IMG/VR virus record: IMGVR_UViG_3300010391_000059
Coordinates: 1 to 44,933 of that record
Origin: a virus
DNA length: 44,933 nt
Reading direction: 5' to 3' (one strand)
The notes beneath the pieces were generated by a model. The model saw nothing but the letters and a program-made list of their open reading frames with translations, was not told the DNA's origin and searched no databases. Shown here piece after piece: positions 4,266-35,032 of this stretch. The translations under genes were made by a program, and so were the position numbers. The stretch's first letter is position 1, and every line of letters begins with the position of its first letter.

Positions 4266-5586
4266 GCTGCCACACAGCGTGGAAGCCGAGCGCGCCGTCC
4301 TGGGGGTAATCCTGCTCTCGAATGGGGGCCTCTACCCGGATGTTGCAGCGCTTCTTCAGGCAGATGATTTTTTCTTGCCCTCTCATCGGGTGATCTTTCG
4401 GCGCATGGGGGGAATGCGCGGCCCGATAGACCTGGTAACGCTCGCAAACGCCCTAGCCGTCAGAAGCGAGCTTGCTACTATCGGCGGCGCCACTTATCTT
4501 TCGAGCCTAACGGACGGCTTCCCGAAAATTGCCAATGCGGACTACTACGTGGAATTGCTGAAAGGCAAGAGCGGACTGCGGAAACTCGCCGCAGCAGGGC
4601 AAAGTTTGATGACGAGGTCGCTCGAATCCGAAGAATCCCCGGAACAGATTCTCGCAGAAGCCCAGCGCAGCCTGAGTACGTTGGCCCAGGCCGGCGGCGG
4701 CGGATTTGTGTCCGTGCCGGAAGTGATTGAATCGCAATTCGGCTCGGTCGAAGCCCTGTTTCAGCCGGGCGAGAAAGCCTCCGGCATAGAGACGGGCTTC
4801 CGGGCGCTTGACCGGACGATTCTTGGATTACGGGAAGAAGAACTCGTGATTCTCGCCGGAAGACCCGGCATGGGTAAGACAGCTCTGGCTCTGAATATTG
4901 CCGCGCACGTTGCGAAACACGATGGTGCCGTTGGGATTTTCAGTCTGGAGATGACCTCTCGGGCGCTGCTGGTTCGTTTGCTCTGTTCGGAAGCCAGAGT
5001 GAACTCGCATCGCTGGGCGGCTGGCTTTGCGACCTCCGAGGATCGCCAACGCCTAGGGCAGGCGGCCGGGATGCTCGCAACGAAGGCACTCTTTTTCGAC
5101 GACGGCTGCGATCTTCGGCCCGAAATCATGGCGGCGCGCGCCAAGGGGCACAAGCAAAGACACGGCTTGAGCTTGCTCATCGTGGACTATCTGCAACTGA
5201 TGGCTCCCGGAGGGCACAGGCATGAATCCCGCACGCAGGAAATTTCCTATATTTCGCGCGCCATGAAAGAGATGGCGCGCGAGTTGAAGGTGCCCGTGCT
5301 GGCCGTCTCGCAACTCAATCGCGCCCAGGAAGAACGTGGCGGATGCCCACGCCTCTCCGACTTGCGCGAGAGCGGACAGATCGAGCAGGACGCTGATGTG
5401 GTGTTGTTTCTCTGGCGCGAAGAAAGCCGTGGCCATAGCCATCCAGCGCGCCAAAGTGGCGAGAGCGAGAAACCGGCGGACGACAAGACGGTGAAATTGA
5501 CGGTGGCAAAGCAGCGCAATGGCCCGGTGGGAAGTTTCAGTCTGGTTTTCTTGAAGGAATTTTGCCGGTTTGAAGAATGCGAGTGA
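4234..5586 (+). CDS. dnaB: Replicative DnaB-family helicase (450 aa)
   Basis: Complete DnaB layout. The N-terminal domain starts HSVEAERAVLGVIL (about residues 14-28). The RecA-like motor has Walker A GRPGMGKTA (about 208-216), FSLEMTS, Walker B LLIVDYLQLM (about 313-322), SQLNRAQEERGG and LRESGQIEQDADVVLFL. It unwinds DNA as a hexamer at the phage fork and should interact with host primase. Two adjacent ATGs (4234, 4237) are possible starts, with GAAGG about 10 nt before. It overlaps the replication-protein gene by 32 bp, so the two are translated together. Confidence 0.95.
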   Translation: MMANIPIQKIELPHSVEAERAVLGVILLSNGGLYPDVAALLQADDFFLPSHRVIFRRMGGMRGPIDLVTLANALAVRSELATIGGATYLSSLTDGFPKIANADYYVELLKGKSGLRKLAAAGQSLMTRSLESEESPEQILAEAQRSLSTLAQAGGGGFVSVPEVIESQFGSVEALFQPGEKASGIETGFRALDRTILGLREEELVILAGRPGMGKTALALNIAAHVAKHDGAVGIFSLEMTSRALLVRLLCSEARVNSHRWAAGFATSEDRQRLGQAAGMLATKALFFDDGCDLRPEIMAARAKGHKQRHGLSLLIVDYLQLMAPGGHRHESRTQEISYISRAMKEMARELKVPVLAVSQLNRAQEERGGCPRLSDLRESGQIEQDADVVLFLWREESRGHSHPARQSGESEKPADDKTVKLTVAKQRNGPVGSFSLVFLKEFCRFEECE

Positions 5587-5609
5587 GCGTCAAGGAGGTC
5601 ACGCGCAAA

Positions 5610-6269
5610 ATGGCTCACGAAACGATTCAGGCTTATCCGCTCCAGTGGCCGGCTGGCTGGCGACGCTGCCGCAGTCGCATCGAGGCCCGGTTCCATCGCC
5701 GGGGGAATCCACAGGGGGAGCATGGCTGGCGGCCGAAGCAGGACCTCACCGTTGCCGACGCCCTCCAGCGCGTGCTAGACGAATTATGGGCGATGGGGTT
5801 TGACCGGGATGGCATTGCCATTTCCACGAACGTCAAGCTCCGCCTCGACGGGCTACCACGTTCGACCGCCGGTGAACCGCAGGACCCCGGCGCGGCGGTC
5901 TATTGGCGCAACGGGAAGAGGGGGATCCGCTGCATGGCGGTTGACCGCTATGACCGCGTGGCGGACAACTTGGCGGCAATCGCTGCTACTCTGGGAGCGA
6001 TGCGGGCGATTGAGCGGCATGGCGGCGCCGAAATATTGGACCGGGCCTTTGCCGGGTTCAAAGCCCTGCCAGCGCCGGAACAGTGGTTTCAAGTTTTGGG
6101 GCTGGACTCCCAGGACGTCACCGAGGAACAGATTCAAGAGGCTTACTACCAGAAGGCTAAAGAGTCTCACCCCGATTTGCCAAGCGGAGACCCAACCGCC
6201 ATGGCGCGGATCAACGCCGCCCGCGACCGCGGGCTGGAGGAGGTACGAGACCATGCACGAATGTCCTGA
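5610..6269 (+). CDS. Phage J-domain protein (219 aa)
   Basis: The C-terminal third is a J-domain: WFQVLGLDSQDVTEEQIQEAY, then the HPD tripeptide (KESHPDLPSGDP, about residue 186) that stimulates Hsp70 ATPase. The N-terminal part (LQWPAGWRR, IAISTNVKLRLDGLPRS, RYDRVADNLAAIAATL) is a domain known from phage J proteins but of unknown function. Encoded directly after DnaB, it probably recruits host DnaK to remodel the initiation complex, as host DnaJ does for lambda P; this is inference. I moved the start to 5610 because AAGGAGG lies 11 nt upstream; the ATG at 5577 lacks a site. Confidence 0.85.
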   Translation: MAHETIQAYPLQWPAGWRRCRSRIEARFHRRGNPQGEHGWRPKQDLTVADALQRVLDELWAMGFDRDGIAISTNVKLRLDGLPRSTAGEPQDPGAAVYWRNGKRGIRCMAVDRYDRVADNLAAIAATLGAMRAIERHGGAEILDRAFAGFKALPAPEQWFQVLGLDSQDVTEEQIQEAYYQKAKESHPDLPSGDPTAMARINAARDRGLEEVRDHARMS

Positions 6270-6372
6270 GTGCCAAGAAGATTGCGATTGCGTAATGCTA
6301 GGAGGGGTCTGCCAGCATAACTGTGAGGAATCCGATAGGGAGCCGGAAGACCCTGGCGAGTACGACGAATGA
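6253..6372 (+). CDS. Very small Cys-rich acidic protein (39 aa)
   Basis: Sequence begins MHECPECQEDCDC and has six cysteines and two histidines in the first 24 residues, then an acidic tail (SDREPEDPGEYDE). A single zinc site is likely. GGAGG lies about 10 nt before the ATG at 6253. It overlaps the J-protein gene by 17 bp and its stop overlaps the rusA start as ATGA. Role unknown. Confidence 0.7.
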   Translation: MHECPECQEDCDCVMLGGVCQHNCEESDREPEDPGEYDE

Positions 6373-6740
6373 ACGCGCCGGAGAAAAGCGTGTGGTTCGT
6401 GGTTCCGCTCGTACCGCCCTCGGGGAACCACTACAAAAAGCCTGTTCGTCGCGGGGACTTTCTCGGATTCTACCTGACGAAAGAGGCGAAGGCGTTCAAA
6501 GAGGCTGTCTGGGTCTGCGCAGCGCACCGTTGGGTTGATGCCAAGCGTTTCCAGGTTTCCGTCGTGGTGTATTTGGCGAAGAAACAGCGTGGCGACTTCG
6601 ACAATTTCTGGAAACTCATCCTGGACGGCCTCGAAGACTCCAAGGTGATTTACTCGGACGCTGCGGTGATGAAGGGGACGCTCGAAAAGCGTCGGGATCG
6701 AGCGAATCCGAGAACGGAGATTCTAATTGAGGCATTTTGA
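6369..6740 (+). CDS. rusA: RusA-family Holliday junction resolvase (123 aa)
   Basis: RusA-type features in order: PPSGNHYKK near the start, YLTKEAKAFKEAV, the acidic active-site stretch GDFDNFWKLILDGL (about residues 74-87), VIYSDAAV and the closing PRTEILI. Length is normal for the family. It cuts four-way junctions formed during recombination or replication so that DNA can be packaged. It starts at an ATGA overlap with the Cys-rich gene and ends the early operon. Confidence 0.92.
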   Translation: MNAPEKSVWFVVPLVPPSGNHYKKPVRRGDFLGFYLTKEAKAFKEAVWVCAAHRWVDAKRFQVSVVVYLAKKQRGDFDNFWKLILDGLEDSKVIYSDAAVMKGTLEKRRDRANPRTEILIEAF

Positions 6741-6772
6741 CTTCTTAAGCGGCTTGCGGGAGGGCTCGCTTT

Positions 6773-6813
6773 GGCGCGGAAACGGCCCTGGGTTCGACTT
6801 TCAAGGCCGCGCC
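6773..6813 (+). other. GC-rich hairpin after rusA
   Basis: GGCGCGG (6773-6779) and CCGCGCC (6807-6813) form an exact 7-bp stem around a 27-nt loop, in the 225-bp gap between early and late genes. There is no strong T run after it, so it is only a weak candidate for a terminator. A GGTTCGA in the loop resembles a tRNA T-loop but no tRNA fold surrounds it. Confidence 0.35.
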
Positions 6814-7297: not shown

Positions 7298-7877
7298 GAA
7301 ACCACGGCCCACAAAGCGTCGCGCCTACAAGCGCGTGCGCGACAGCGCCGCCTACCTCGAGTGGCGCGAGCACAAAATGGCCGCGTTACTCGAAGTGAAA
7401 GAAGGCAAGTCCGTTCTGGCCGTCGCAAAGAAATACGGGTTCACGCCCCGCAATCTTTTCCGCTGGCAGTTTGCCGATGAAGGGCGCAGACGGAGCATCG
7501 CTGCTCGCGCCGCAGAAATTGCCGATGGCAAAATGATCGAGAACAAAATCAACGAGGCTTCCGAAGCGCTTTCCGACGGTCTCGCCCACAACGAAGATTA
7601 CAACCGCGGCAGACTCGGTCTCGGCGCGCTGGAGAAGCTGGTCCCAGACTTCCAGAAGGGCGCAGCCCTGCCTCCCGGAGCAACCCAAAACAATTTCTTC
7701 TTTTCGAACGATGAACAAGCCAGACGATTCTTCGAACTCGAACGCAGAGCCAAAGAGCAGCGGCTTATCGGCGCGCCAGTTAGCGAGCCAACGGCTTTCG
7801 GAAGCCCAAGCGACGATTCTAGGCCGGATCAAGAGCGATGCCCTGTGGTGGCTCCGCAACGCGACGAAAACCTATGA
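7290..7877 (+). CDS. Putative terminase small subunit (195 aa)
   Basis: An N-terminal basic region and a helix-turn-helix (KSVLAVAKKYGFTPRNLFRWQF, about residues 40-61) are followed by helices and a C-terminal tail. This is the usual layout of small terminase subunits, which bind the packaging site and present DNA to the large subunit. Its place just before the large-subunit gene supports the call. The large-subunit frame starts 167 bp before this gene ends, an unusually long overlap, so either this gene's tail or the next gene's start may be imperfect. Confidence 0.65.
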   Translation: MPEKPRPTKRRAYKRVRDSAAYLEWREHKMAALLEVKEGKSVLAVAKKYGFTPRNLFRWQFADEGRRRSIAARAAEIADGKMIENKINEASEALSDGLAHNEDYNRGRLGLGALEKLVPDFQKGAALPPGATQNNFFFSNDEQARRFFELERRAKEQRLIGAPVSEPTAFGSPSDDSRPDQERCPVVAPQRDENL

Positions 7878-8475
7878 CCCGCATTGGGCGGAGCACGGCT
7901 TCGAGTCGCCCTACAATCCCTTCCCGCAACACGAATACCTCGATTACGTCTTCGATTTTCTCAAGCCGGAGCGCGAGGTCTCGATCCAGTGGGTTCGAGA
8001 CCGGCTGCCCGCCGACCCATGGCGCGGTGCCCGCGAGCGCATCATCGAGAAATCGCGGACGATGCTTGGGACTTGGGCGTGCGTCGGGTTCTTTACTCAC
8101 GCCGCAATCACCGTTCCGGGGCGGGAATTTCTTTTCCAGAGCCAAACCGCAGAGAAGGCGGAAGAATTGATCTCGATGGCGAAAACGCTTTGGTTCCAGC
8201 AAGACGACTGGCTGAAAAGGGAATTCCCGCTGGATCGTCGTCTTGACGATCTGCCGCGAGATTTGATCCGATGGAAAAACGCCTCGCGGATCGTCGGAAT
8301 CCCCAGCGACCCGGACAAAGTGCGGTCGTATCACCCGACCGGGATGCTCATCGACGAAGCGGCATTCATCAGCGAGTTCAAGCGCAACCGCGAGACGGCG
8401 ATCCCGGCGTGTAAAGTGCTCGTGATGCTTTCGAGCGCCGGGCCTAGTGAGTTCGGCGACTTTATCTGTAACTGA
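7711..8475 (+). CDS. terL: Terminase large subunit, ATPase part (254 aa)
   Basis: Carries the motor half of TerL: a deviant Walker A region (EKSRTMLGTWACVGFF), FLFQSQTAEKAEELI, the Walker B GMLIDEAAFI and the coupling motif LVMLSSAGPSEFGDF near its end. The nuclease half is encoded by the next frame, which begins 2 nt after this stop (TGAAAATG). Intact TerL proteins of this type run straight on from the coupling motif, so this is a split or frameshifted gene. The ATG at 7711 lies inside the small-subunit gene and has no good ribosome site. Confidence 0.85.
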   Translation: MNKPDDSSNSNAEPKSSGLSARQLASQRLSEAQATILGRIKSDALWWLRNATKTYDPHWAEHGFESPYNPFPQHEYLDYVFDFLKPEREVSIQWVRDRLPADPWRGARERIIEKSRTMLGTWACVGFFTHAAITVPGREFLFQSQTAEKAEELISMAKTLWFQQDDWLKREFPLDRRLDDLPRDLIRWKNASRIVGIPSDPDKVRSYHPTGMLIDEAAFISEFKRNRETAIPACKVLVMLSSAGPSEFGDFICN

Positions 8476-8477
8476 AA

Positions 8478-9503
8478 ATGCCTAATGGCCTTTCGATTCG
8501 CAGCAACTCAAAGAAAATCCCGATTCTTCGGCTCCACTACTCCGCGCATCCGCAACGCGATGCGGCTTGGGTTGCGGAAGAAAAACCGAAGTATTCCGAG
8601 GCCATGTGGCAGCAGGAGCAGGAGATTGACTACTCTGCTGCGGGCGGGGAGCGGGTCTTGCGCGCACTGCTCGAACGGCGCTGGGAAGAAATCGTCATCA
8701 CCGATCCGAAGTGGGAGGCTGATCCCGGATGGGCTTACGGCAACGGGCTGGACTACGGGAAAGCTCATCCTTGCGCGTTCGAGCCTTGCGCGATGGACTT
8801 CACGGGATGCCGGTACGCGCTTGCGGAAAGCTATCACTCCGGTCTGACGCCTAAAGAAAATATGGCCCACATCAAAACCATGCGGCTGCCGTGCGTCGAG
8901 GAAAATGGCGCGAACCCCTTGGCGATCATGAAGGCGCTGGGAACTTTCTGCGATCCCTCGATGGGATACACGAACGTCGCCTCCGAAGATAAATTCACGA
9001 GCTATACGGCGCTGTTTGCCTCTGCGGGGATGCCGCGCGTCCAACTCGGAATTCGCGGCCACGACCAGAATTTGCTCGCGCAGATCATTGACGCCTGGAA
9101 CCAACCGGACCCCATGTTCAAAATCGTCTGCCGCAATATGCCGTTCCCGTGCGATCCCGGTTCCATGAAGAAGCGCGAAGGGACCTACGAGCAAGGCTGC
9201 CCGAACCTGCTTTGGGAGCTGCTGAATTTGAGGCGGAACGAGAACACAGCGGTTCGGGAAGAAAAAGTAGGTCCCTCGGAAGGGTTGGTGGACAAAGACA
9301 ACGACGGTTGGGACGCGCTGAAATACTGGTGGACGAGCCAGACCGCGACTCCGCAAATCTCCGAGAACGTGGCGTGGCGGCAACAAGTGCATAAGATTCG
9401 GGAGAAACATCCCGACATGGACCTGAACTCGCTCTCCATGCATCAGCAGCGCTGGGAGCGCGAGCGGAAACGGAAAAGGGAGGCGGTGCTCTCATGGAGA
9501 TAG
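8478..9503 (+). CDS. terL: Terminase large subunit, nuclease part (341 aa)
   Basis: Continues the TerL reading: KKIPILRLHYSAHPQRD, KYSEAMWQQEQEIDYSAAGGERV, then the RNase H-like nuclease domain with a first catalytic Asp in NGLDYGKAHPC and later acidic residues (CDPSMGY; KDNDGWDALKYW). It cuts concatemeric DNA at the start and end of packaging. The frame is offset from the ATPase half; one base removed or added near 8470 would fuse them. Re-initiation at this ATG, 2 nt past the upstream stop, is also possible, giving a two-protein motor. Confidence 0.85.
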   Translation: MPNGLSIRSNSKKIPILRLHYSAHPQRDAAWVAEEKPKYSEAMWQQEQEIDYSAAGGERVLRALLERRWEEIVITDPKWEADPGWAYGNGLDYGKAHPCAFEPCAMDFTGCRYALAESYHSGLTPKENMAHIKTMRLPCVEENGANPLAIMKALGTFCDPSMGYTNVASEDKFTSYTALFASAGMPRVQLGIRGHDQNLLAQIIDAWNQPDPMFKIVCRNMPFPCDPGSMKKREGTYEQGCPNLLWELLNLRRNENTAVREEKVGPSEGLVDKDNDGWDALKYWWTSQTATPQISENVAWRQQVHKIREKHPDMDLNSLSMHQQRWERERKRKREAVLSWR

Positions 9504-9794: not shown

Positions 9795-9977
9795 ATGATG
9801 GCCATTGCGGAGCACGCGCCGGAAAAGCTGTACGAAAGAAACAGGGGCGTCCTCTCGATGGAGAAGGAACAGATGCACGACTTCGCCTCGACGAAGCGAA
9901 AAGGCTTGCCGATGCACGCCAACGCCAAGAACTTTCTCCGGCGCAACAAGCGCAGAAAAGGAGTCCGCCATGGCTAA
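9795..9977 (+). CDS. Small basic structural-region protein with NFLRR tail motif (60 aa)
   Basis: Contains AIAEHAPEKLYERNRGVLSM, HDFASTKRKGLPMH and a basic C-terminus KNFLRRNKRRKG. The DFAST..KGLP block is common in small proteins encoded near terminase and portal genes. The annotated ATG pair at 9795/9798 lacks a ribosome site. The frame runs on upstream as TPAKSAAQQI, which fits the family's N-terminus, with AAAGGAG exactly 7 nt before an ACG at 9765, so the true start may be that ACG. Confidence 0.7.
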   Translation: MMAIAEHAPEKLYERNRGVLSMEKEQMHDFASTKRKGLPMHANAKNFLRRNKRRKGVRHG

Positions 9978-10296
9978 GCGAGAAGGGGGAACCTACGAGC
10001 GTCAGCGCGAATACGAATCGCGCCAAGAGGAATCCATTCGGCAGAAACGCATGGAAGACGCGGACGTATGGCAAGGAAAACTCCAAGCCGAATTCAACGA
10101 GCGCACCGCGCCGCAACGACAGAGGCGTTTGACGGCAGCGCGAGAGGCTGCGCAAGCAAAGAAGCGCGGCGTTCCGTTCTACGAGCACGGCGGAAAAGTC
10201 AAAGAGACAGGCCCCGCGTTTTTGCATAAGGGCGAGAGAGTTGTCCCGGCCAAAAACTTCCTGCGACGGAAGAAACGGGCGAAAAGGAGTTATTGA
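9970..10296 (+). CDS. Small structural-region protein, second with NFLRR motif (108 aa)
   Basis: MAKREGGTYERQREYESRQ opens a charged helical N-terminal half. The C-terminal part reads FYEHGGKVKETGPAFLHKGERVV, a block widespread in small phage head-region proteins, then AKNFLRRKKRAKRSY. I chose the ATG at 9970 because AAAAGGAG stands 8-9 nt upstream. Its tail repeats the NFLRR of the genes on both sides in different codons. Confidence 0.75.
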   Translation: MAKREGGTYERQREYESRQEESIRQKRMEDADVWQGKLQAEFNERTAPQRQRRLTAAREAAQAKKRGVPFYEHGGKVKETGPAFLHKGERVVPAKNFLRRKKRAKRSY

Positions 10297-10297
10297 G

Positions 10298-10531
10298 ATG
10301 GCGCGGCTGACATACGAGAAAAGAGAATCGTTGCCCGGCAAAAGTTTCGTCTTTCGTAAAGCGCGGAAATATCCAATCGAGGACGAAGCCCACGGCAGAT
10401 CGGCATTGCAGCGAGTTTCGCAGTTTGGTTCCTCCGAAGAAAAAGCTACCGTGCGCGCCGCTGTCAAGCGCAAATTCCCCGGCATCGCCCAATCCAAAGG
10501 CAAAGCCCGCAATTTTCTGAGACGATCTTGA
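10298..10531 (+). CDS. Small structural-region protein, third with NFLRR motif (77 aa)
   Basis: MARLTYEKRESLPGKSF, then KYPIEDEAHGRSALQRVSQFGS and RAAVKRKFPGI. This is the layout of a small family (YPI.D..HA..AL.RV) seen in many phages and of unknown function. It ends KARNFLRRS. The start at 10298 has AAAAGGAG upstream. Its stop overlaps the portal start (TTGA). Lys/Arg content suggests contact with DNA or an acidic partner. Confidence 0.78.
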   Translation: MARLTYEKRESLPGKSFVFRKARKYPIEDEAHGRSALQRVSQFGSSEEKATVRAAVKRKFPGIAQSKGKARNFLRRS

Positions 10532-12685: not shown

Positions 12686-13816
12686 ATGGCAGAGAACGAT
12701 CAGGACGTAGCAGTAGTGGAAGAGGTGGACGCTTCCCAGGGTTCGTCCGACCCGAATCAAGCCACGCCCGCAAAAGAAGCCGACATAGAATCGGGGCAAG
12801 GCCCGAAAAAACCTAGTCAGGAACCGGCTCCTCCTGGCGAATCCGGCAAACCACCCAAAGAAGGTCCAGTACCTTATGCGCGCTTCAAAGAGGCGCAGGA
12901 GGAGCGGACGCAGTTCAAATCCCTCTTAGAGGAATTTGCGAAGCATGGGCTGGAAACGCCGGAGCATGCGGAGGTTTTACGCAGTGAGGTGGATCGTCTG
13001 GGAACTCAGATCGGCAGCTACGAGGATGCTTGCAGTAAGGGGCAGATATTCAACTTGGTAGCGGAGCATTACCCGCAAATCTACCAGGACCATTGCGTGA
13101 GCATCCTGAGTCAGTTGCTCGAAGCCTTCAGCTCGTCGTTCCGCAAAAGAAACGACGACGAGGGCAGAGTGCTCTCGGAAGCGGCGGACACGATGTTGGA
13201 AATGACGCGCCGCAACGCGCAGCAATCTCCCCGCCGAACGGCGCGGGAAGATCCCGAGAGGGAATCCCTGGCTTCGGAAAGGCAGGAGTATTTCGACGAG
13301 AGGATTCAGACGGAAGTGGATAGCCGCCTCGCCGCAAAGATCAACGCACTTCCCATCGTTCAGGAACTGCAATTCAAGGACGATGCCCAACGCCAATTTT
13401 TCACCGACCAGATACTCGAACAGCTTGGCGCAACGCTCGACAACGACGAAGTATTTGCCAGAGAGAACAAGAGACTCCAAGATCCCAAGCGCGGCTTTGG
13501 ACGCGACCAGCAAAAAGACGTAGCGGAGCTTCATGTCCGTTACGGAACGATGGCTGGCCGGCTGGAGCGCGCGGTGGCCCACACGATCACCCTTCTGAAC
13601 CTTGCCCGCAAATCACCCCACGCGGCCGGGAAAGGCCCGAATGGGCAGGGAACGGAAAGGCGCGAAGTGGGCGCGGAAGGCGCGGCGGCAACAGGCGGCA
13701 GCGTCCCGATAGACGCGAAGCAGCGCATCCGCGAAGAGTTGATGCAGGGAGGCTTGCGAGGGTCTGCGCTGATGAAGGAGTTCATGGCTCGGGTTCGAAA
13801 GATGGCGACGGGATGA
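12686..13816 (+). CDS. Putative scaffolding protein (376 aa)
   Basis: Acidic, Pro/Glu-rich N-terminus (VVEEVDASQGSSDPNQ), long charged helical middle and a basic C-terminus ending MKEFMARVRKMATG. Placed directly before the capsid gene, it has the composition of a scaffolding protein that shapes the procapsid and then leaves. It has a strong ribosome site (AAAGGAG). No sequence motif proves the call. Confidence 0.7.
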   Translation: MAENDQDVAVVEEVDASQGSSDPNQATPAKEADIESGQGPKKPSQEPAPPGESGKPPKEGPVPYARFKEAQEERTQFKSLLEEFAKHGLETPEHAEVLRSEVDRLGTQIGSYEDACSKGQIFNLVAEHYPQIYQDHCVSILSQLLEAFSSSFRKRNDDEGRVLSEAADTMLEMTRRNAQQSPRRTAREDPERESLASERQEYFDERIQTEVDSRLAAKINALPIVQELQFKDDAQRQFFTDQILEQLGATLDNDEVFARENKRLQDPKRGFGRDQQKDVAELHVRYGTMAGRLERAVAHTITLLNLARKSPHAAGKGPNGQGTERREVGAEGAAATGGSVPIDAKQRIREELMQGGLRGSALMKEFMARVRKMATG

Positions 13817-28451: not shown

Positions 28452-29342
28452 ATGGGAATGAGTCCACTGCCATACGGATTGAGGCCAGATACGCGGCTGC
28501 TGCCGGGCCGCGATCCTGGGAACCTCTACCTGACAAATCCCATGGGGGTGCTCCCCGAGGAATTGACGGCCCCACTGCCACCTTACGCCCAGTTTGGCCG
28601 GGAGCCAGGAGCGCGGCCCTACGATCCAGCAAGGGCGGCCCGATCACTCGAGATCGTCAAACAAGGGATGCTGCCAGACACGCTGCGCCCAGGGACCTAC
28701 ATCTCGCCAGAGCAGCAAGGAATGCGCGCGCGCGCGCAAGCCGCCCAGCAGATCATCGAGGAATTGGCGGCAGCGGCAGGACAGCCCGAGTACCAGCCGC
28801 CAAGTACAGAAGGTCCGGGGTACGCTCGCGGCTCGACGCAGGGCTTGGCAATGCTGGCGCAACAATTGAACCAGCCGATTTACCCGGAAACGCCACCGCC
28901 TCCTCCGCCAATTGCAGCGGCGCAGCCAGAGTCGTTCACTCTCCGCGCAGGCGAAACGCGGTTTGGCCCTACCGGGCAGGAAATTGCCAGAGCGGAAGCT
29001 CCTCCAGCGCAGGCTCGCACACTCTACGAGCGGCTGGGGCCAGAAGGCTATAACCAAATGCTGCGTGAGGCAGCCAAGGCTCGGAACCTGACGCCGCAGG
29101 TGACGGAAGACCTTGTCAACGACATTGCGCGGCGCGTGGACGCGATGGAATTGACGCCGCAGCAGGGGATCGCGCTGATGGGCGGAGCTAAGAACGCCCC
29201 GCAGTTGGCGGGGGCGCTTGCGGCTCAGACCCCGAGCAAGCAGGCCACCAGGCAGCAAGTCCAGGCGTTTGCGGACCAAGAGGGCATTCCCCTAGAAGCT
29301 GCGGAGGTTGAATTCCAGGCAGCAGGCTACACGATTCTCTGA
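28452..29342 (+). CDS. Internal virion / ejection-like protein (296 aa)
   Basis: Proline- and glutamine-rich protein (ETPPPPPPIAAAQPESF) with a C-terminal helical part (GYNQMLREAAKARNLTPQ, VQAFADQEGIPLEAAEVEF). The last about 25 residues resemble a small helix-turn region. Ribosome site GGGAGG; the stop overlaps the start of the giant gene (TGATG), so the two are co-translated. Confidence 0.58.
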   Translation: MGMSPLPYGLRPDTRLLPGRDPGNLYLTNPMGVLPEELTAPLPPYAQFGREPGARPYDPARAARSLEIVKQGMLPDTLRPGTYISPEQQGMRARAQAAQQIIEELAAAAGQPEYQPPSTEGPGYARGSTQGLAMLAQQLNQPIYPETPPPPPPIAAAQPESFTLRAGETRFGPTGQEIARAEAPPAQARTLYERLGPEGYNQMLREAAKARNLTPQVTEDLVNDIARRVDAMELTPQQGIALMGGAKNAPQLAGALAAQTPSKQATRQQVQAFADQEGIPLEAAEVEFQAAGYTIL

Positions 29343-32300
29343 TGGCGACGCGAGTTGACGATTTCATGGCGGGGCAGCAACTAGCAGCACCTCGTAACCG
29401 CGTGGACGATTTCATGGCCCTAGAACAGACGCCGCCCGCAGCCAGCCGGGTAGATAAATTCATGGCTGGGAAAATCGCAGCCCCGGCGAAGCCGCACATC
29501 GGTCAGCGTGCGCAGGCTGCCACGCAACGGTTTTTGCAGACAGACCCTATCTCGCGCGTGCTCGGAGCCGTGGCCCCCAGGTTAGCGCCAATCAGCCAGC
29601 AGATGGGCCTCCCAACGGCTACGGAAGTCGCACAGCGGCATCTCCCGGAGCCAGGCCAACCATTTACGCCTAAGGGCATAGCAAAGCAGGCAGTCGGCGT
29701 GGCTGGCAGGGCTGCGGCGGGGGTCATAGATTTCCTCCAGAGCCCGGCGGGACTGGCAGCGACAGCGGCCACTATTGCCTCTGGGGGAGCAGCGGCTCCA
29801 GCGCTCGTGAAGTTTGGTTTTTTGCCTACGATGGGGGCAGAGACCGTAGTTGCCGGGAAAGAATTTCTCCAGAAGCCCACGCCGGAGAATGCGGAGCGGT
29901 TTTTCACTACAGGGGCCGTTACCGCCCTGGTGGGCACGCAAGCCGTCCCAAAACCAATCCCGCCAGCACCGCGTCCCGCACCCGCTTTTGAGTTTGGCGT
30001 CCGGCGTCCCGAAGGGCCTTACGGACGGGTTCTATACGAGCCGCCCGCAGTTGGCGAGGATATTGTCGCTGAGGTCTTGCGGCGCCAGCCCAGCGGAACA
30101 GCTCCGCTGCCGAGAAATCTTCGTCCGCAAGAACCTCCGCCCGAAGCCGCTATTCCTCCGCGCCCAGTAACGCCGCAGCCGGTTCCCGCGATACAGCCGG
30201 CTGCGGCCCCTCCACCGCAAGGAGAATTTACCGCAGAAGCGATCGCTGCCCCCAAGCCGATTACCCCTCTGGCCAAGCCACCAGCGCAGCCAGCGCCAAA
30301 AGCTGAGGTTCCAGTGGGCCCCTACGCGGCAGTCAAGGGGAACCTGGGCAAGGAAATCGCCCTCCTGGAAAAGGAAGTTGAACGGCTCACCCCAGGCAAA
30401 ATTGCCGAAGTGCGTCAAATGGCTCAAGAGGGTGAGTACGCCCCGGAAACGTACAGAGACACGCTAAACTTTGAATTAAAGAGAATTCGGACAAAAGGAG
30501 TCTACCCGACTCGAGAAGCAAAGACCGTAACTCCGGTCGAACTTTCCGAACATCAGATGCGTAACATCGTCGAGACGGCTGGCGGGAAGTGGCGCGGCGT
30601 CCAAAAGGGTTTCGGAGAAATCGGAGACTCAGCCCTATTCGACGATCCGCAGACCGGCTCGACACTTGCGGTTCCGTTGGATCGCCTCACGGAAGCAACC
30701 GTGCTGGAAAAGATGGTGGAATCTCGGAAGAAGTTTGCAGAGCCAGCAGAACCCGGAGTCACCCCAGAGGCTCCTGCCGAACGCCGCCTGGAAGTGCCTC
30801 GCACGCAGACCTTTGACACTTGGCTGCAAGACACCTACAACCTGACGCACGATAGGCTAATGGCTCTCCCGGCTGAAGAACAGGCCAACATTCGGGCCGA
30901 CTTCAACCGCGATCGTCGCTGGCACGCGCCCCAAATAGCCGAGCGGATGATTCAGGAGCGCAGAACGGGCGCCGGACTTGCGCCGGAAGGCCTAGGCGAG
31001 CGGCGGGAGCCACGCGATTATGCGGTAGAAGCAGATGTCTTTGCTGAACAGGCTCGTGAGGGATTGGCCCGCGTGGAGGCGGCACAGCCGCAATTTGAAC
31101 GCCATTTAGCGGAAGGTCGTGCTGCTAATGCTAGGTTTGGTGGTGGGATTGAACGCTATGTGGAGGCAAGTAGGAAACTTGCGGGTGAAAGGCGTAGAGC
31201 AATTGACGTAACGGCTGAAGTGGTAGAGGAGCGTCCAGAAAGGCTTATAGCAGAAGTACGGCAACCGATTGTTGGCATCCGAGGGCGAGAGACGCTGGTG
31301 GACACGGAAACAGCGCAGCATCCGGCAGTGTACAAGCTCGTGGAACTGGACGAGTTGGAGGCTTCCCACAACGCCATGACGTTCGAAGAGAATCCACGCT
31401 ATCCCAAGGGCGTCCAGGAACGGGATTACCGGGGCAGCAAGGAAGCCCAGCAGCAAGTGATTCAGAGCGCCCAGAACTTCAAGCCCGAGCGCATCGCCAA
31501 CACCGATCCGACGCATGTGAATGGCCCTCCGATGACCGATCCGACTGGCTTAGTGTTGGGCGGCAATGGGCGAGTGATGATCCTCAAGCGGGCATACGAT
31601 CAACTAGGCAAGGGGGAGGACTACAAAGCCTACCTGCGGGAACACGCCCAAGAATTCGGTCTCGATCCAGCGCAGATTGACGCTTTGGAGAAGCCAGTCT
31701 TAGTACGGGAGATGACAGCCGCGCCCAGCGGGGTTGAGGGGATGCGGCGGATTGGCAAAGAGTTGAATGCGCCGGTTACGAAAGCCCTTGGCTTGGAAGA
31801 GGCTGCGGTTAGTGCCGGGAAGAATCTCAGCAAGGCGAGTGCAGATCGGATTGCGAACGAACTTGCCAAGCTCGGAGAAGATTCGACTCTGCGGCAGGTC
31901 TTCGACGCGAACCCCAAAATGATCCGCGAGGTGCTGGCCGAAGACGCCATGATTGCTGAAACCGAAAGGGCGAAATACTTTACCCCCGAGGGCTTGCTGA
32001 CTTCCGCCGGAAAAGATTTTGTAGAGAAGGCTTTTCTCGGGAGTGTCATTGACGATGTGCCAACTCTGCGGGCGTTGCCGAAAAGCCTTGTGGCAAAGCT
32101 CGAACGGTCCATCCCGGCGCTGATGGAACTAAAAAACCGCACAGACGACTGGAACATCATCGGTGACGTCAAGGAAGCTGGGAAGCTCATCGCCTCCGCG
32201 CAAGCTCGCGGCGTGAAACTATCCGACATGCTGGCGCAAGGCGGCCTTTTCGGTGAAGTGCCAGCACGAGTCGGCCAACTTGCAGAATTGCTTTCACGCA

Positions 32301-35032
32301 AGCCTACGGAGGTCGCCGCGACGCTACGCGAGTTTGCCAATGCTGCCCGCGCAGACGTGCCAAGCCAGGGCCGCATGTTCTTCCAGCGAGAGACGCCGGT
32401 GGCGGCTTGGAACCGGATCGTCGAACTGCGGCTGGAGCAATGGCGCTTAGGAGAGAAGATCAACAAGCGGTTTGGGGAGATGGCCTCTGGCGGTACGCTC
32501 CAGGCTGAACTCGATCCGACAATTCTGGCGGACTTGGCGAAGTTGGGAGCGGTGATTATTGAGCGCGGCGTGCGAGACTTCGGGGCTTGGTCGAAAGAGA
32601 TGGTCAGCAACGTAGGGGAGCGCATCCGACCGCACCTCAAGGAACTCTGGGAAGCAGCGCGAACAATGGGGCCAACGGTGCGGCTGGAGCGCAAACTGGA
32701 AACCGTCGAGCAAATGCTGGCTCGCCTATCCTTACCAGCGCGCACGATTCTTGCCGAAGGTGAGAAGACGTTTGAACGTGGGACGGTGCGGCGTGAAATT
32801 CGAGAAGAATTCTACGGGGCAGAGCGACCCGGCTACGAACAAACCTACGAGCGGAAGATTTCCGTGGCCGACGTGGACCGAGCGCGCAACGCCCTCAGGG
32901 ACGCTCACGATACCGCAGTTCATTGGATGCAAAGCGCTCAGTCCATGGGGGACGACATCGCTACGGCAGTGGGCCGGTCTGCCGTGGACTACCTGAATCA
33001 AGCCAGCCGCCTTTTCAAGGAAACCGGGACAGCGGGAGGGCGGATTCTCCAATCGCTCCAGAGAAAACAGCGCCCAGAAGCCGGATTACCGCGAGAAGAA
33101 GCGGCTCCGGGATTGGGGGCTGGCGCGGGCCAAGGCAAAGGCCCCGGAGTTGGACCTGGCAAAGGCGGCGCCCCAGGCACCTCGTTGCCCGAACTGATGG
33201 AGCAGGCGCGGGCGCTGGTGGCGCAAGCCAGCTCGCAACTGCGCGGGGTGCGGACGATTCGCCAGCGGGAGCCTGTAACAACCGGACTCATCAATGCCGT
33301 TCGTGAGCGTCGCTGGCCGGACGCTGCGCGATACGCCGTGGATCAACTGCGGCTGAATCTCTTATCCGTGGGTTCCTGGACATTGGACGCGATCGGGAAC
33401 GCAAGCGAGATGGGCCCGCAGGCCATGGCTGGCTTGGGGCATGATCTCGTTTACACAACCCGAAGCGGACAGGTGAGTTTCCCCGCCGTGCGAGGCTTCG
33501 TAGAAGCGGTGAGGAATCGCTGGCGCGAGCGACGCATTCCGATGGACCAGGAAATTGAGGCAGCGTTCGGACGGACAGCGGGCGGCGAACGCTTTGGCCG
33601 GGTTCCGACAGGCGAGCGCCGGAGGCTCACGATGCGTGAGCGACTGGAGCGGCCCGGTGCATTCACATACAGAACTACGAAGGCAAGTGCGGCCTTCGAC
33701 ATCCTGCAAGGTGCCCCGCTGTACGCGAAGAGTGCGATGGACATGGGCGCGAAGCGGCTCGTGGCGACAGCAACGATCTTCCGCGACGCAATCAAGGCGG
33801 CCGATTCCATGAGGCTCGAAGGCGCCCGTCGGCAGACGTTCATCAAACAATTCTTCGAACGACTGCCGGAAGCCACGCGCGAAGAGGCAAACCGTGAAGG
33901 CAATAAGGCGGGATTCAATCGGCCGCTATCGCAGCTCGAAGAACGCTGGGCCGCCTCCACGGTAGGCAGGCTTGTCGTGGACGCCTTCGGGCGCTGGCCG
34001 TTTCAGTTCACCCGCTGGGCTGGCGAAATGCTGGGCTACAATCGCCCGCTGTTTGAGAAGTTGCGTGCCGGGAAAGCAACGCCCGAGGAGATTGGAGCCT
34101 ACGTCGCCAAGACCGCTACCGGATACGGCGGGCTGCTACTGCTCGACTCATTGCTCTACGACCGCACGGATTTCAATTCGATGGAGTACGTTACTGAAAA
34201 CGGCGACCGCGTGCGCATTTCTGGCAGGGAGCCGCTGGCGACCGGGCTATGGTTCTTGGCGCTCGTGAAGGGCGATACCGATAAAGCGGCGGCGGCATTG
34301 CGGTACGCTTCAATCCCTGCGGCAAGGCTTTTTACCGGGGAGGGCGGTCTGGCGACCAGCACTTTCAAGGCGTTCTACCAGGCAGCGCAGAACCCGCAGA
34401 ACGATCCGCGCGCGCTTCGCCGGGAGCTCTCCACGCAGTTCAACAAAGCCATCCCAGGACAGGCGTTACTGAGCACGCTGAAAACTCTTTTCGACCAAAC
34501 CATCCGCGAGGGGCCTGGGGCGAACCTGCCGGTAATTTCCAGAGCTTTACCGGCGCGCATCAAGCCTACCACGGGAGAGCCGCAGCGCCCGACACAACGT
34601 ATTCCTGGCACAGAAACGGAACTGCCCTCGATCCAAGGGACGCCTATTCCTGGCATGGTCCGCGTAACCGATCCAGTTGAGCGGCTTTTGACGCGCTACA
34701 GCCTGATGGTTTACAGGGGCTTGCGGCAACCGATTGCCGGATTCCCGCCAGGCGAAGTTCCGCCCGAATATCGCAGAGAGTGGGAAAGCGAGCTTGGCAA
34801 AGAACGGAAACGGCTGCTCACGCCGATGGCGCAAAGACTGGGGCGCGGGGAATTGGAACGGCTGCCGGATGAAAGTATGCGCAAACGCATCCAGACGCTC
34901 GACGCTATGGCGGCGCGTATCGCCACGATGCGCGTAAGCCGTGCGCATGGCGGCGTTCCCAAGCTCACCGAAAGACGGCCGACGTTCAGGGAGAGGGCTG
35001 GGCCGGAAATCTACCAACCGGAGGCGCGATAG
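29342..35032 (+). CDS. Giant polyvalent ejection protein with DdrB/ParB-like domain (1896 aa)
   Basis: The N-terminus holds three exact-period repeats RVD[DK]FMA (residues 4-10, 20-26, 36-42), then a Pro/Ala-rich linker and hydrophobic helices (about 130-175). Residues about 640-800 match the DdrB-like ParB domain of polyvalent phage proteins: VYKLVELDELEASHNAM, FKPERIANTDPTHVNGP, TGLVLGGNGRVMIL. The remaining about 1,000 residues are mostly helical with a hydrophobic patch near TGYGGLLLLDSLLY. Such proteins are packaged and ejected with the DNA and may act as nucleases or defence blockers in the new host. The ParB-like call is confident; activity is not shown. Confidence 0.8.
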   Translation: MATRVDDFMAGQQLAAPRNRVDDFMALEQTPPAASRVDKFMAGKIAAPAKPHIGQRAQAATQRFLQTDPISRVLGAVAPRLAPISQQMGLPTATEVAQRHLPEPGQPFTPKGIAKQAVGVAGRAAAGVIDFLQSPAGLAATAATIASGGAAAPALVKFGFLPTMGAETVVAGKEFLQKPTPENAERFFTTGAVTALVGTQAVPKPIPPAPRPAPAFEFGVRRPEGPYGRVLYEPPAVGEDIVAEVLRRQPSGTAPLPRNLRPQEPPPEAAIPPRPVTPQPVPAIQPAAAPPPQGEFTAEAIAAPKPITPLAKPPAQPAPKAEVPVGPYAAVKGNLGKEIALLEKEVERLTPGKIAEVRQMAQEGEYAPETYRDTLNFELKRIRTKGVYPTREAKTVTPVELSEHQMRNIVETAGGKWRGVQKGFGEIGDSALFDDPQTGSTLAVPLDRLTEATVLEKMVESRKKFAEPAEPGVTPEAPAERRLEVPRTQTFDTWLQDTYNLTHDRLMALPAEEQANIRADFNRDRRWHAPQIAERMIQERRTGAGLAPEGLGERREPRDYAVEADVFAEQAREGLARVEAAQPQFERHLAEGRAANARFGGGIERYVEASRKLAGERRRAIDVTAEVVEERPERLIAEVRQPIVGIRGRETLVDTETAQHPAVYKLVELDELEASHNAMTFEENPRYPKGVQERDYRGSKEAQQQVIQSAQNFKPERIANTDPTHVNGPPMTDPTGLVLGGNGRVMILKRAYDQLGKGEDYKAYLREHAQEFGLDPAQIDALEKPVLVREMTAAPSGVEGMRRIGKELNAPVTKALGLEEAAVSAGKNLSKASADRIANELAKLGEDSTLRQVFDANPKMIREVLAEDAMIAETERAKYFTPEGLLTSAGKDFVEKAFLGSVIDDVPTLRALPKSLVAKLERSIPALMELKNRTDDWNIIGDVKEAGKLIASAQARGVKLSDMLAQGGLFGEVPARVGQLAELLSRKPTEVAATLREFANAARADVPSQGRMFFQRETPVAAWNRIVELRLEQWRLGEKINKRFGEMASGGTLQAELDPTILADLAKLGAVIIERGVRDFGAWSKEMVSNVGERIRPHLKELWEAARTMGPTVRLERKLETVEQMLARLSLPARTILAEGEKTFERGTVRREIREEFYGAERPGYEQTYERKISVADVDRARNALRDAHDTAVHWMQSAQSMGDDIATAVGRSAVDYLNQASRLFKETGTAGGRILQSLQRKQRPEAGLPREEAAPGLGAGAGQGKGPGVGPGKGGAPGTSLPELMEQARALVAQASSQLRGVRTIRQREPVTTGLINAVRERRWPDAARYAVDQLRLNLLSVGSWTLDAIGNASEMGPQAMAGLGHDLVYTTRSGQVSFPAVRGFVEAVRNRWRERRIPMDQEIEAAFGRTAGGERFGRVPTGERRRLTMRERLERPGAFTYRTTKASAAFDILQGAPLYAKSAMDMGAKRLVATATIFRDAIKAADSMRLEGARRQTFIKQFFERLPEATREEANREGNKAGFNRPLSQLEERWAASTVGRLVVDAFGRWPFQFTRWAGEMLGYNRPLFEKLRAGKATPEEIGAYVAKTATGYGGLLLLDSLLYDRTDFNSMEYVTENGDRVRISGREPLATGLWFLALVKGDTDKAAAALRYASIPAARLFTGEGGLATSTFKAFYQAAQNPQNDPRALRRELSTQFNKAIPGQALLSTLKTLFDQTIREGPGANLPVISRALPARIKPTTGEPQRPTQRIPGTETELPSIQGTPIPGMVRVTDPVERLLTRYSLMVYRGLRQPIAGFPPGEVPPEYRREWESELGKERKRLLTPMAQRLGRGELERLPDESMRKRIQTLDAMAARIATMRVSRAHGGVPKLTERRPTFRERAGPEIYQPEAR
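29351..29467 (+). repeat. Three 48-bp-period peptide repeats RVD(D/K)FMA
   Basis: Starting at 29351, 29399 and 29447, each unit encodes RVDDFMA or RVDKFMA with an exact 16-codon period. The intervening residues and codons differ, so the peptide rather than the DNA is conserved. Confidence 0.85.

Follow-up and report, generated by a model that had tools for sequence, protein, structure and literature searches.

Three consecutive small genes of an uncultured phage, here designated A, B, and C, encode otherwise unrelated proteins that carry the same C-terminal peptide, A[KR]NFLRR. The genes are located between the large terminase gene and the probable portal gene of the window (i.e. the whole stretch of DNA analyzed), a 44.9-kb phage contig from a virus record with a G+C content of 58.7%. 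The shared tail is real and non-random, lies far outside the observed background, and is unexplained by known families. Its upkeep is at the level of the peptide and not of the DNA. As a tentative explanation, to which we give slightly less than an even chance, A, B, and C would be minor virion proteins with a common C-terminal docking tail for one site of the head, portal, or tail connector.

A Common C Terminus in Three Adjacent Proteins

The coordinates, reading frames, tails, and codons of the three genes were as claimed in the initial annotation, which had described three neighboring proteins ending in NFLRR with differing codons (Table 1). All three were called as genes by a codon-usage gene caller. 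A and B resembled each other most closely, with seven identical residues in a row (AKNFLRR) plus most of AKNFLRRxKRxK. Beyond NFLRR, A continued with NKRRKGVRHG and B with KKRAKRSY, whereas C had only NFLRRS. The distal basic residues (RKG in A and AKRS in B) overlap the AAAAGGAG Shine-Dalgarno sequence of the respective next gene and are explained by it; therefore, only AKNFLRR is in need of explanation. Strong Shine-Dalgarno sequences were seen for genes B and C. None was evident for gene A, which may be translationally coupled. The N termini of A, B, and C were unlike, and their bodies were unrelated outside the tail, as had also been maintained. No further copy of NFLRR was present in the six frames of the window.

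Table 1. Genes and sequence elements in the terminase-portal region of the window
Feature	Position	Strand	Description
Large terminase	7711..9503	+	two ORFs, 7711-8475 and 8478-9503, each matching phrog_2
Gene A, 60 aa, pI 11.0	9795..9977	+	shortened DUF3008-like (KEQMHDFASTKRKGLP), end HANAKNFLRRNKRRKGVRHG
A tail AKNFLRR	9924..9944	+	GCC AAG AAC TTT CTC CGG CGC
NFLRR block of A	9930-9944	+	AACTTTCTCCGGCGC
Shine-Dalgarno of gene B, AAAAGGAG	9956..9963	+	inside end of gene A
Gene B, 108 aa, pI 10.5	9970..10296	+	charged N-terminal part, then HGGKVKETGPAFLHKGERVVPA, tail AKNFLRRKKRAKRSY; end ...VVPAKNFLRRKKRAKRSY
B tail AKNFLRR	10249..10269	+	GCC AAA AAC TTC CTG CGA CGG
NFLRR block of B	10255-10269	+	AACTTCCTGCGACGG
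Shine-Dalgarno of gene C, AAAAGGAG	10282..10289	+	inside end of gene B
Gene C, 77 aa, pI 11.2	10298..10531	+	DUF6582/phrog_16160 family, tail extension SKGKARNFLRRS
C tail ARNFLRR	10505..10525	+	GCC CGC AAT TTT CTG AGA CGA
NFLRR block of C	10511-10525	+	AATTTTCTGAGACGA
Probable portal gene, 712 aa	10528..12666	+	TTG start overlaps stop of C

When the three 20-residue tails were shuffled with preservation of their composition, a 5-mer common to all of them arose in 1 of 300,000 shuffles. Adjacent same-strand triples were taken from codon-usage gene calls on the window and other phage records. Among 910 such triples in 36 phage records, the window trio was the only one sharing more than three residues at the tail, and not one of the other 909 shared even 4 residues.

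In pairwise comparison, 4-5 of the 15 bases of the NFLRR block differed, and one codon in five was identical, as against the 1.9 of five expected from independent codon draws. The codon match was no higher than under independent choice; therefore, nothing in it points to recent copying, and the peptide itself was retained. The initial annotation had read the codon differences in the same way. It was calculated that an unconstrained 15-base block with 4-5 differences retains its peptide in 0.06-0.5% of cases, a figure that overstates the case because the block was picked for identity and its differences are synonymous by construction. Folding did not reveal RNA structure at the tails (z 0.1 to 1.3).

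Families of A, B, and C and Distribution of the Tail

C matched the profile of phrog_16160 (E 1e-11) and was 41-64% identical to 17 homologues; it has the conserved core FxxP...YPI.D..HARNAL.R.SQ....VRAAVKRKFP.I. Its match to Pfam PF20223 reached 23.7 bits and stayed below the cut-off of 27.3. The predicted model of C (pLDDT 74) consisted of three helices and a disordered tail, and no significant fold match to it was found in the PDB. For A, the C-terminal third alone matched DUF3008 (PF11450), at 22.9 bits and below the cut-off of 24, and A was devoid of the AQQ part of the N-terminal KSKAQQ region of DUF3008, which suggests a DUF3008-like protein and not a member of the family. B matched phrog_15478 with an E value of 0.0035, and its HGGKVKETGPAFLHKGERVVPA segment resembled a module that certain tape-measure proteins carry close to their end; no family was assigned to B, and no homologue of it was found. 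Membership of B in phrog_831 was considered and rejected (hhalign probability 0.1%, no phrog_831 match in the profile search). The bodies of the three proteins are unrelated; therefore, the tail is an end that was added to three different kinds of protein.

According to the initial annotation, homologues from related phages without the tail would refute the idea of a common tag. The tail was absent from all 102 homologues of C (22 from IMG/VR and 80 bacterial or archaeal) and from all three homologues of A, a result that speaks against a family-wide tag but not against a lineage-specific one. In L038, a homologue of A is encoded directly beside a homologue of C; the pairing of A and C thus recurs without the tail. 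Close relatives of the phage were found neither in IMG/VR with portal, capsid, and B queries nor in INPHARED with portal, A, and B queries. Scans of IMG/VR with the patterns KGE-xx-PxxNFL and AKNFLRR[KN]K returned unrelated or chance matches only. Judged from the sequences compared, the tail was added in this phage lineage and is restricted to it.

Genomic Setting

The product of the gene downstream of C is probably the portal protein, as indicated by its place after the large terminase gene and by homologues in Acidobacteria prophages. These homologues in Acidobacteria genomes were 21-27% identical to it across the whole protein, one of them had a sub-threshold P22_portal match, and the small genes upstream of them differed from A, B, and C. 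The AlphaFold model of the probable portal (pLDDT 33) was too poor to be used for an assignment by fold. A zinc-ribbon-like CxxC...CxxC motif (C182, C185, C204, and C207) was common to the probable portal and its homologue in L024. The scaffold-like gene at 12686-13816 encodes a protein ending in KEFMARVRKMATG; its resemblance to KNFLRR was too weak for use.

The two terminase ORFs lie in different frames, with a TGA at 8473-8475 and then an ATG at 8478; a frameshift, a split gene, or a sequencing error could underlie this arrangement. No tape-measure gene was recognized in the window, and the phage may therefore be short-tailed. Positions 29342-35032 encode a protein of 1896 residues that combines a ddrB-like ParB domain with a DarB-like segment; it is probably one of the large polyvalent proteins carried in virions.

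Shared C Termini in Other Phages

Peptides of at least 5 residues common to neighboring proteins, i.e. those encoded within six genes of each other, were counted in 49 phage records comprising 1707 genes. Thirteen neighbor pairs shared a 5-mer at the C terminus, compared with 2 at the N terminus and 2 and 1 at internal positions. The excess persisted when the window was left out of the first 36 records, with 7 C-terminal pairs, compared with 3 in three equally large controls (p 0.003). Each phage with a shared tail has its own peptide sequence. The shared C terminus was [VI]SN[KR]VAEKHG in G014 and FSKLG[RS]K in G010. Two neighbors share SIGRKIL in L024/G022, and L024 carries a homologue of the portal gene of the window. 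In G023 (L139 12286-13933), the portal protein (PF12236) and the product of the next small gene have the C-terminal ELQEAMT in common, and the corresponding block contains the Shine-Dalgarno-like CAGGAGG. A second tail shared by three proteins was found in an unrelated phage, G440 (L168, minus strand; 2525-2815, 4953-6407, and 6435-6791), where an AAA ATPase (PF00004) and two small unrelated neighbors end exactly in LRKIN[VI], again with differing codons. Three small genes of G018 (L138, minus strand; 5533-5703, 6136-6354, and 7364-7618) end in VAS[ML]S[DE]V, for which the DNA was nearly identical (23/24 bases, GTTGCATCxxTGTCGGAxGTTGxG). In G018, the shared tail thus probably reflects a DNA element that is repeated at the ends of genes.

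Taken together, C-terminal tail sharing is suggestive of a general pattern among phage neighbors. It is no more than suggestive because pairs within a cluster are not independent and some have causes other than docking: the HTVC010P proteins are paralogues, the tail of G023 overlaps a Shine-Dalgarno sequence, and that of G018 is a DNA repeat.

Two further cases were noted in passing. Neighbors in G441 (L171 11310-13053) share an N-terminal KKxILxEEISKMRSMMGL, which recalls head-targeting propeptides. In G442 (L173 1367-3739), a Pam3 gp34-like protein ends in DDSIPF (an SSB-like tip), and the adjacent protein, which has a TOTE-type primase domain, ends in TSIPF.

A Proposed Docking Tail and Alternative Explanations

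According to the tentative docking explanation, A, B, and C would be small, basic, minor proteins of the virion whose genes immediately precede the portal gene, and the A[KR]NFLRR tail would bring each of them to the same binding site in the head, portal, or tail-connector assembly. The extra lysine and arginine residues of A and B might assist the tail, and the differing bodies might do other jobs, e.g. contact DNA or neighboring head proteins. It is inferred that the proteins would be present in the virion and that their tails would have a common partner, for which a head, portal, or connector component is the candidate; the initial annotation had suggested portal, procapsid, or terminase. 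In favor of docking, A, B, and C are of small size and strongly basic (60-108 aa, pI 10.5-11.2), with genes lying between terL and the probable portal gene. Elsewhere, small genes immediately preceding a portal gene specify conserved or shared C termini (phrog_831 and L024), and in G023 the portal protein itself is one of the sharers. The non-random peptide, its upkeep in spite of differing codons, the lack of RNA structure, the example of T7 gp7.3, and the excess of C-terminal over N-terminal and internal sharing likewise favor docking. The lack of the tail in homologues of A and C and the failure to find a close relative in IMG/VR and INPHARED count against docking, as do the rejection of B as a phrog_831 member and the other causes of some shared tails in the survey. 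The initial annotation had envisaged a role in docking, which for small basic pre-portal proteins has a good precedent in T7 gp7.3 (PMC11784390). The tag does not, however, characterize the families to which these proteins are related.

A different origin of the peptide is somewhat unlikely but is the main alternative. Recombination at short sequences of gene ends might have introduced small genes serially into the interval between terL and the portal gene, each bringing the same 3' end (tail, Shine-Dalgarno sequence, and next start), so that the peptide would be a by-product and the tails would have drifted since. It fits this proposal that adjacent genes share C-terminal and not N-terminal peptides, that A and B also have AAAAGGAG and ATGGC after the tail in common, and that Cluster O mycobacteriophages offer a precedent (PMC4351075). 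Neutral drift, however, would seldom leave an identical peptide with so few identical codons, and the searches revealed no relative in which the site is empty. The tags may well have arisen by copying of gene ends and come under selection later, and in this form the proposal is compatible with docking.

That the tail was kept for binding of DNA or RNA rather than for protein docking, as a basic peptide that is protamine-like or serves the packaged DNA, appears quite unlikely. The ends of A and B are rich in lysine and arginine (NKRRKG and KKRAKR), the pI values of the three proteins are high, and in T7 gp7.3 the DNA end is contacted by K84 and K85, where the docking loop begins (PMC11784390). 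The exactly kept part, however, is NFLRR including Asn-Phe-Leu and not just the basic residues, and C has nothing beyond NFLRRS.

A signal at the level of DNA or RNA (repeat, operator, Shine-Dalgarno sequence, or translational-coupling element) that happens to be read three times in the same frame is highly improbable. The tails do precede the starts of B and C by 40 and 43 bases, the Shine-Dalgarno sequence of the following gene accounts for the distal residues of A and B, and G018 demonstrates that such an effect exists. Most synonymous sites of NFLRR differ, however, and these codon differences largely refute the idea; moreover, the distance to the portal start is 17 and not 40 bases, and no RNA fold was found. 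Chance or convergence among short basic C termini is scarcely credible in view of the shuffles and the triples, even though many phage genes have basic ends of low complexity and a reader seeking oddities had chosen the window out of many.

The docking explanation can be extended to a phage-specific C-terminal "zip code" in many phages. An identical short tail would recruit unrelated small proteins of a cluster to one partner, and new small genes would join by acquiring the tail; NFLRR, LRKIN[VI], SIGRKIL, [VI]SN[KR]VAEKHG, and FSKLG[RS]K would be cases of it. We regard this generalization as unlikely. Next to their terminase and portal genes, phages have numerous tiny genes to which no function is assigned. 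If a common tail tells which of these act at one place in the particle, function could be assigned from the sequence of one genome, without homologues. The excess of shared tails among neighbors can be checked in every sequenced phage. With a ready-made docking peptide for the C terminus, proteins could also be loaded into phage heads in a simple way.

Comparison with Known Systems

The view that no system of this kind has been described was too strong, since T7 gp7.3, the capsid targeting sequence of T4, and the phrog_831 proteins with their KTLLG tails are closely comparable. In T7, gp7.3 and gp6.7 are encoded upstream of portal gene 8, with gp7.3 just before it. Only the C-terminal loop of gp7.3 (residues 84-98 of 99) is ordered in the virion; it is anchored to two adjacent nozzle subunits, and the basic remainder of the protein runs along the DNA (PMC11784390). 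gp6.7 likewise bridges portal and core (PMC11784390). Small ORFs at the same place in Peru-2 were suggested to act in the same way, and the product of one was detected in virions at low abundance (PMC13320782). A, B, and C are also small, basic, and encoded directly upstream of a (probable) portal gene. No relation in sequence to gp7.3 or gp6.7 was seen, and a single T7 protein carries the docking loop, compared with three tailed proteins in the window.

The phrog_831 proteins (HTVC010P, epsilon15, and others) are small pre-portal proteins with the pattern ILTGxxG...KTLLG. Like A, B, and C, they are encoded directly upstream of the portal gene, and they are best conserved at the C terminus. 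They are members of one homologous family of unknown function, however, with two copies side by side as paralogues in HTVC010P, whereas A, B, and C are unrelated. The likeness between KNFLRR and KTLLG extends to only two or three residues, which counts against docking. The pattern [KR]x[FILM]L[GRKS] occurred in 10/26 cases near portals versus 10/1025, a ratio inflated by family members and obtained with a pattern fitted post hoc; it was set aside as proof.

In T4, a capsid targeting sequence is present in IPI, IPII, IPIII, and Alt, and ten residues suffice for IPIII (PMC9026906). There too, a short peptide sends different small proteins into the head. The T4 sequence is an N-terminal propeptide that acts via the prohead core, whereas the peptide of the window is C-terminal, with no cleavage known. 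A targeting sequence of the T4 type was rejected for the window on account of this position and the unlike N termini of A, B, and C.

In Cluster O mycobacteriophages, a 17-bp repeat flanks gene 14 of Corndog and is single in relatives, where it lies at the gene junction; most of the differences between the left repeat at gene 60 of YungJamal and its Corndog counterpart are synonymous (PMC4351075). There, as would hold for the window under gene-end copying, neighboring small genes are bounded by copies of one gene-end sequence; in Cluster O, however, the repeat is visible as DNA, and relatives have the empty site, neither of which was seen here. The docking of small portal-proximal proteins by their C termini is already known from T7; what is new in the window is that three unrelated neighbors carry the same tail.
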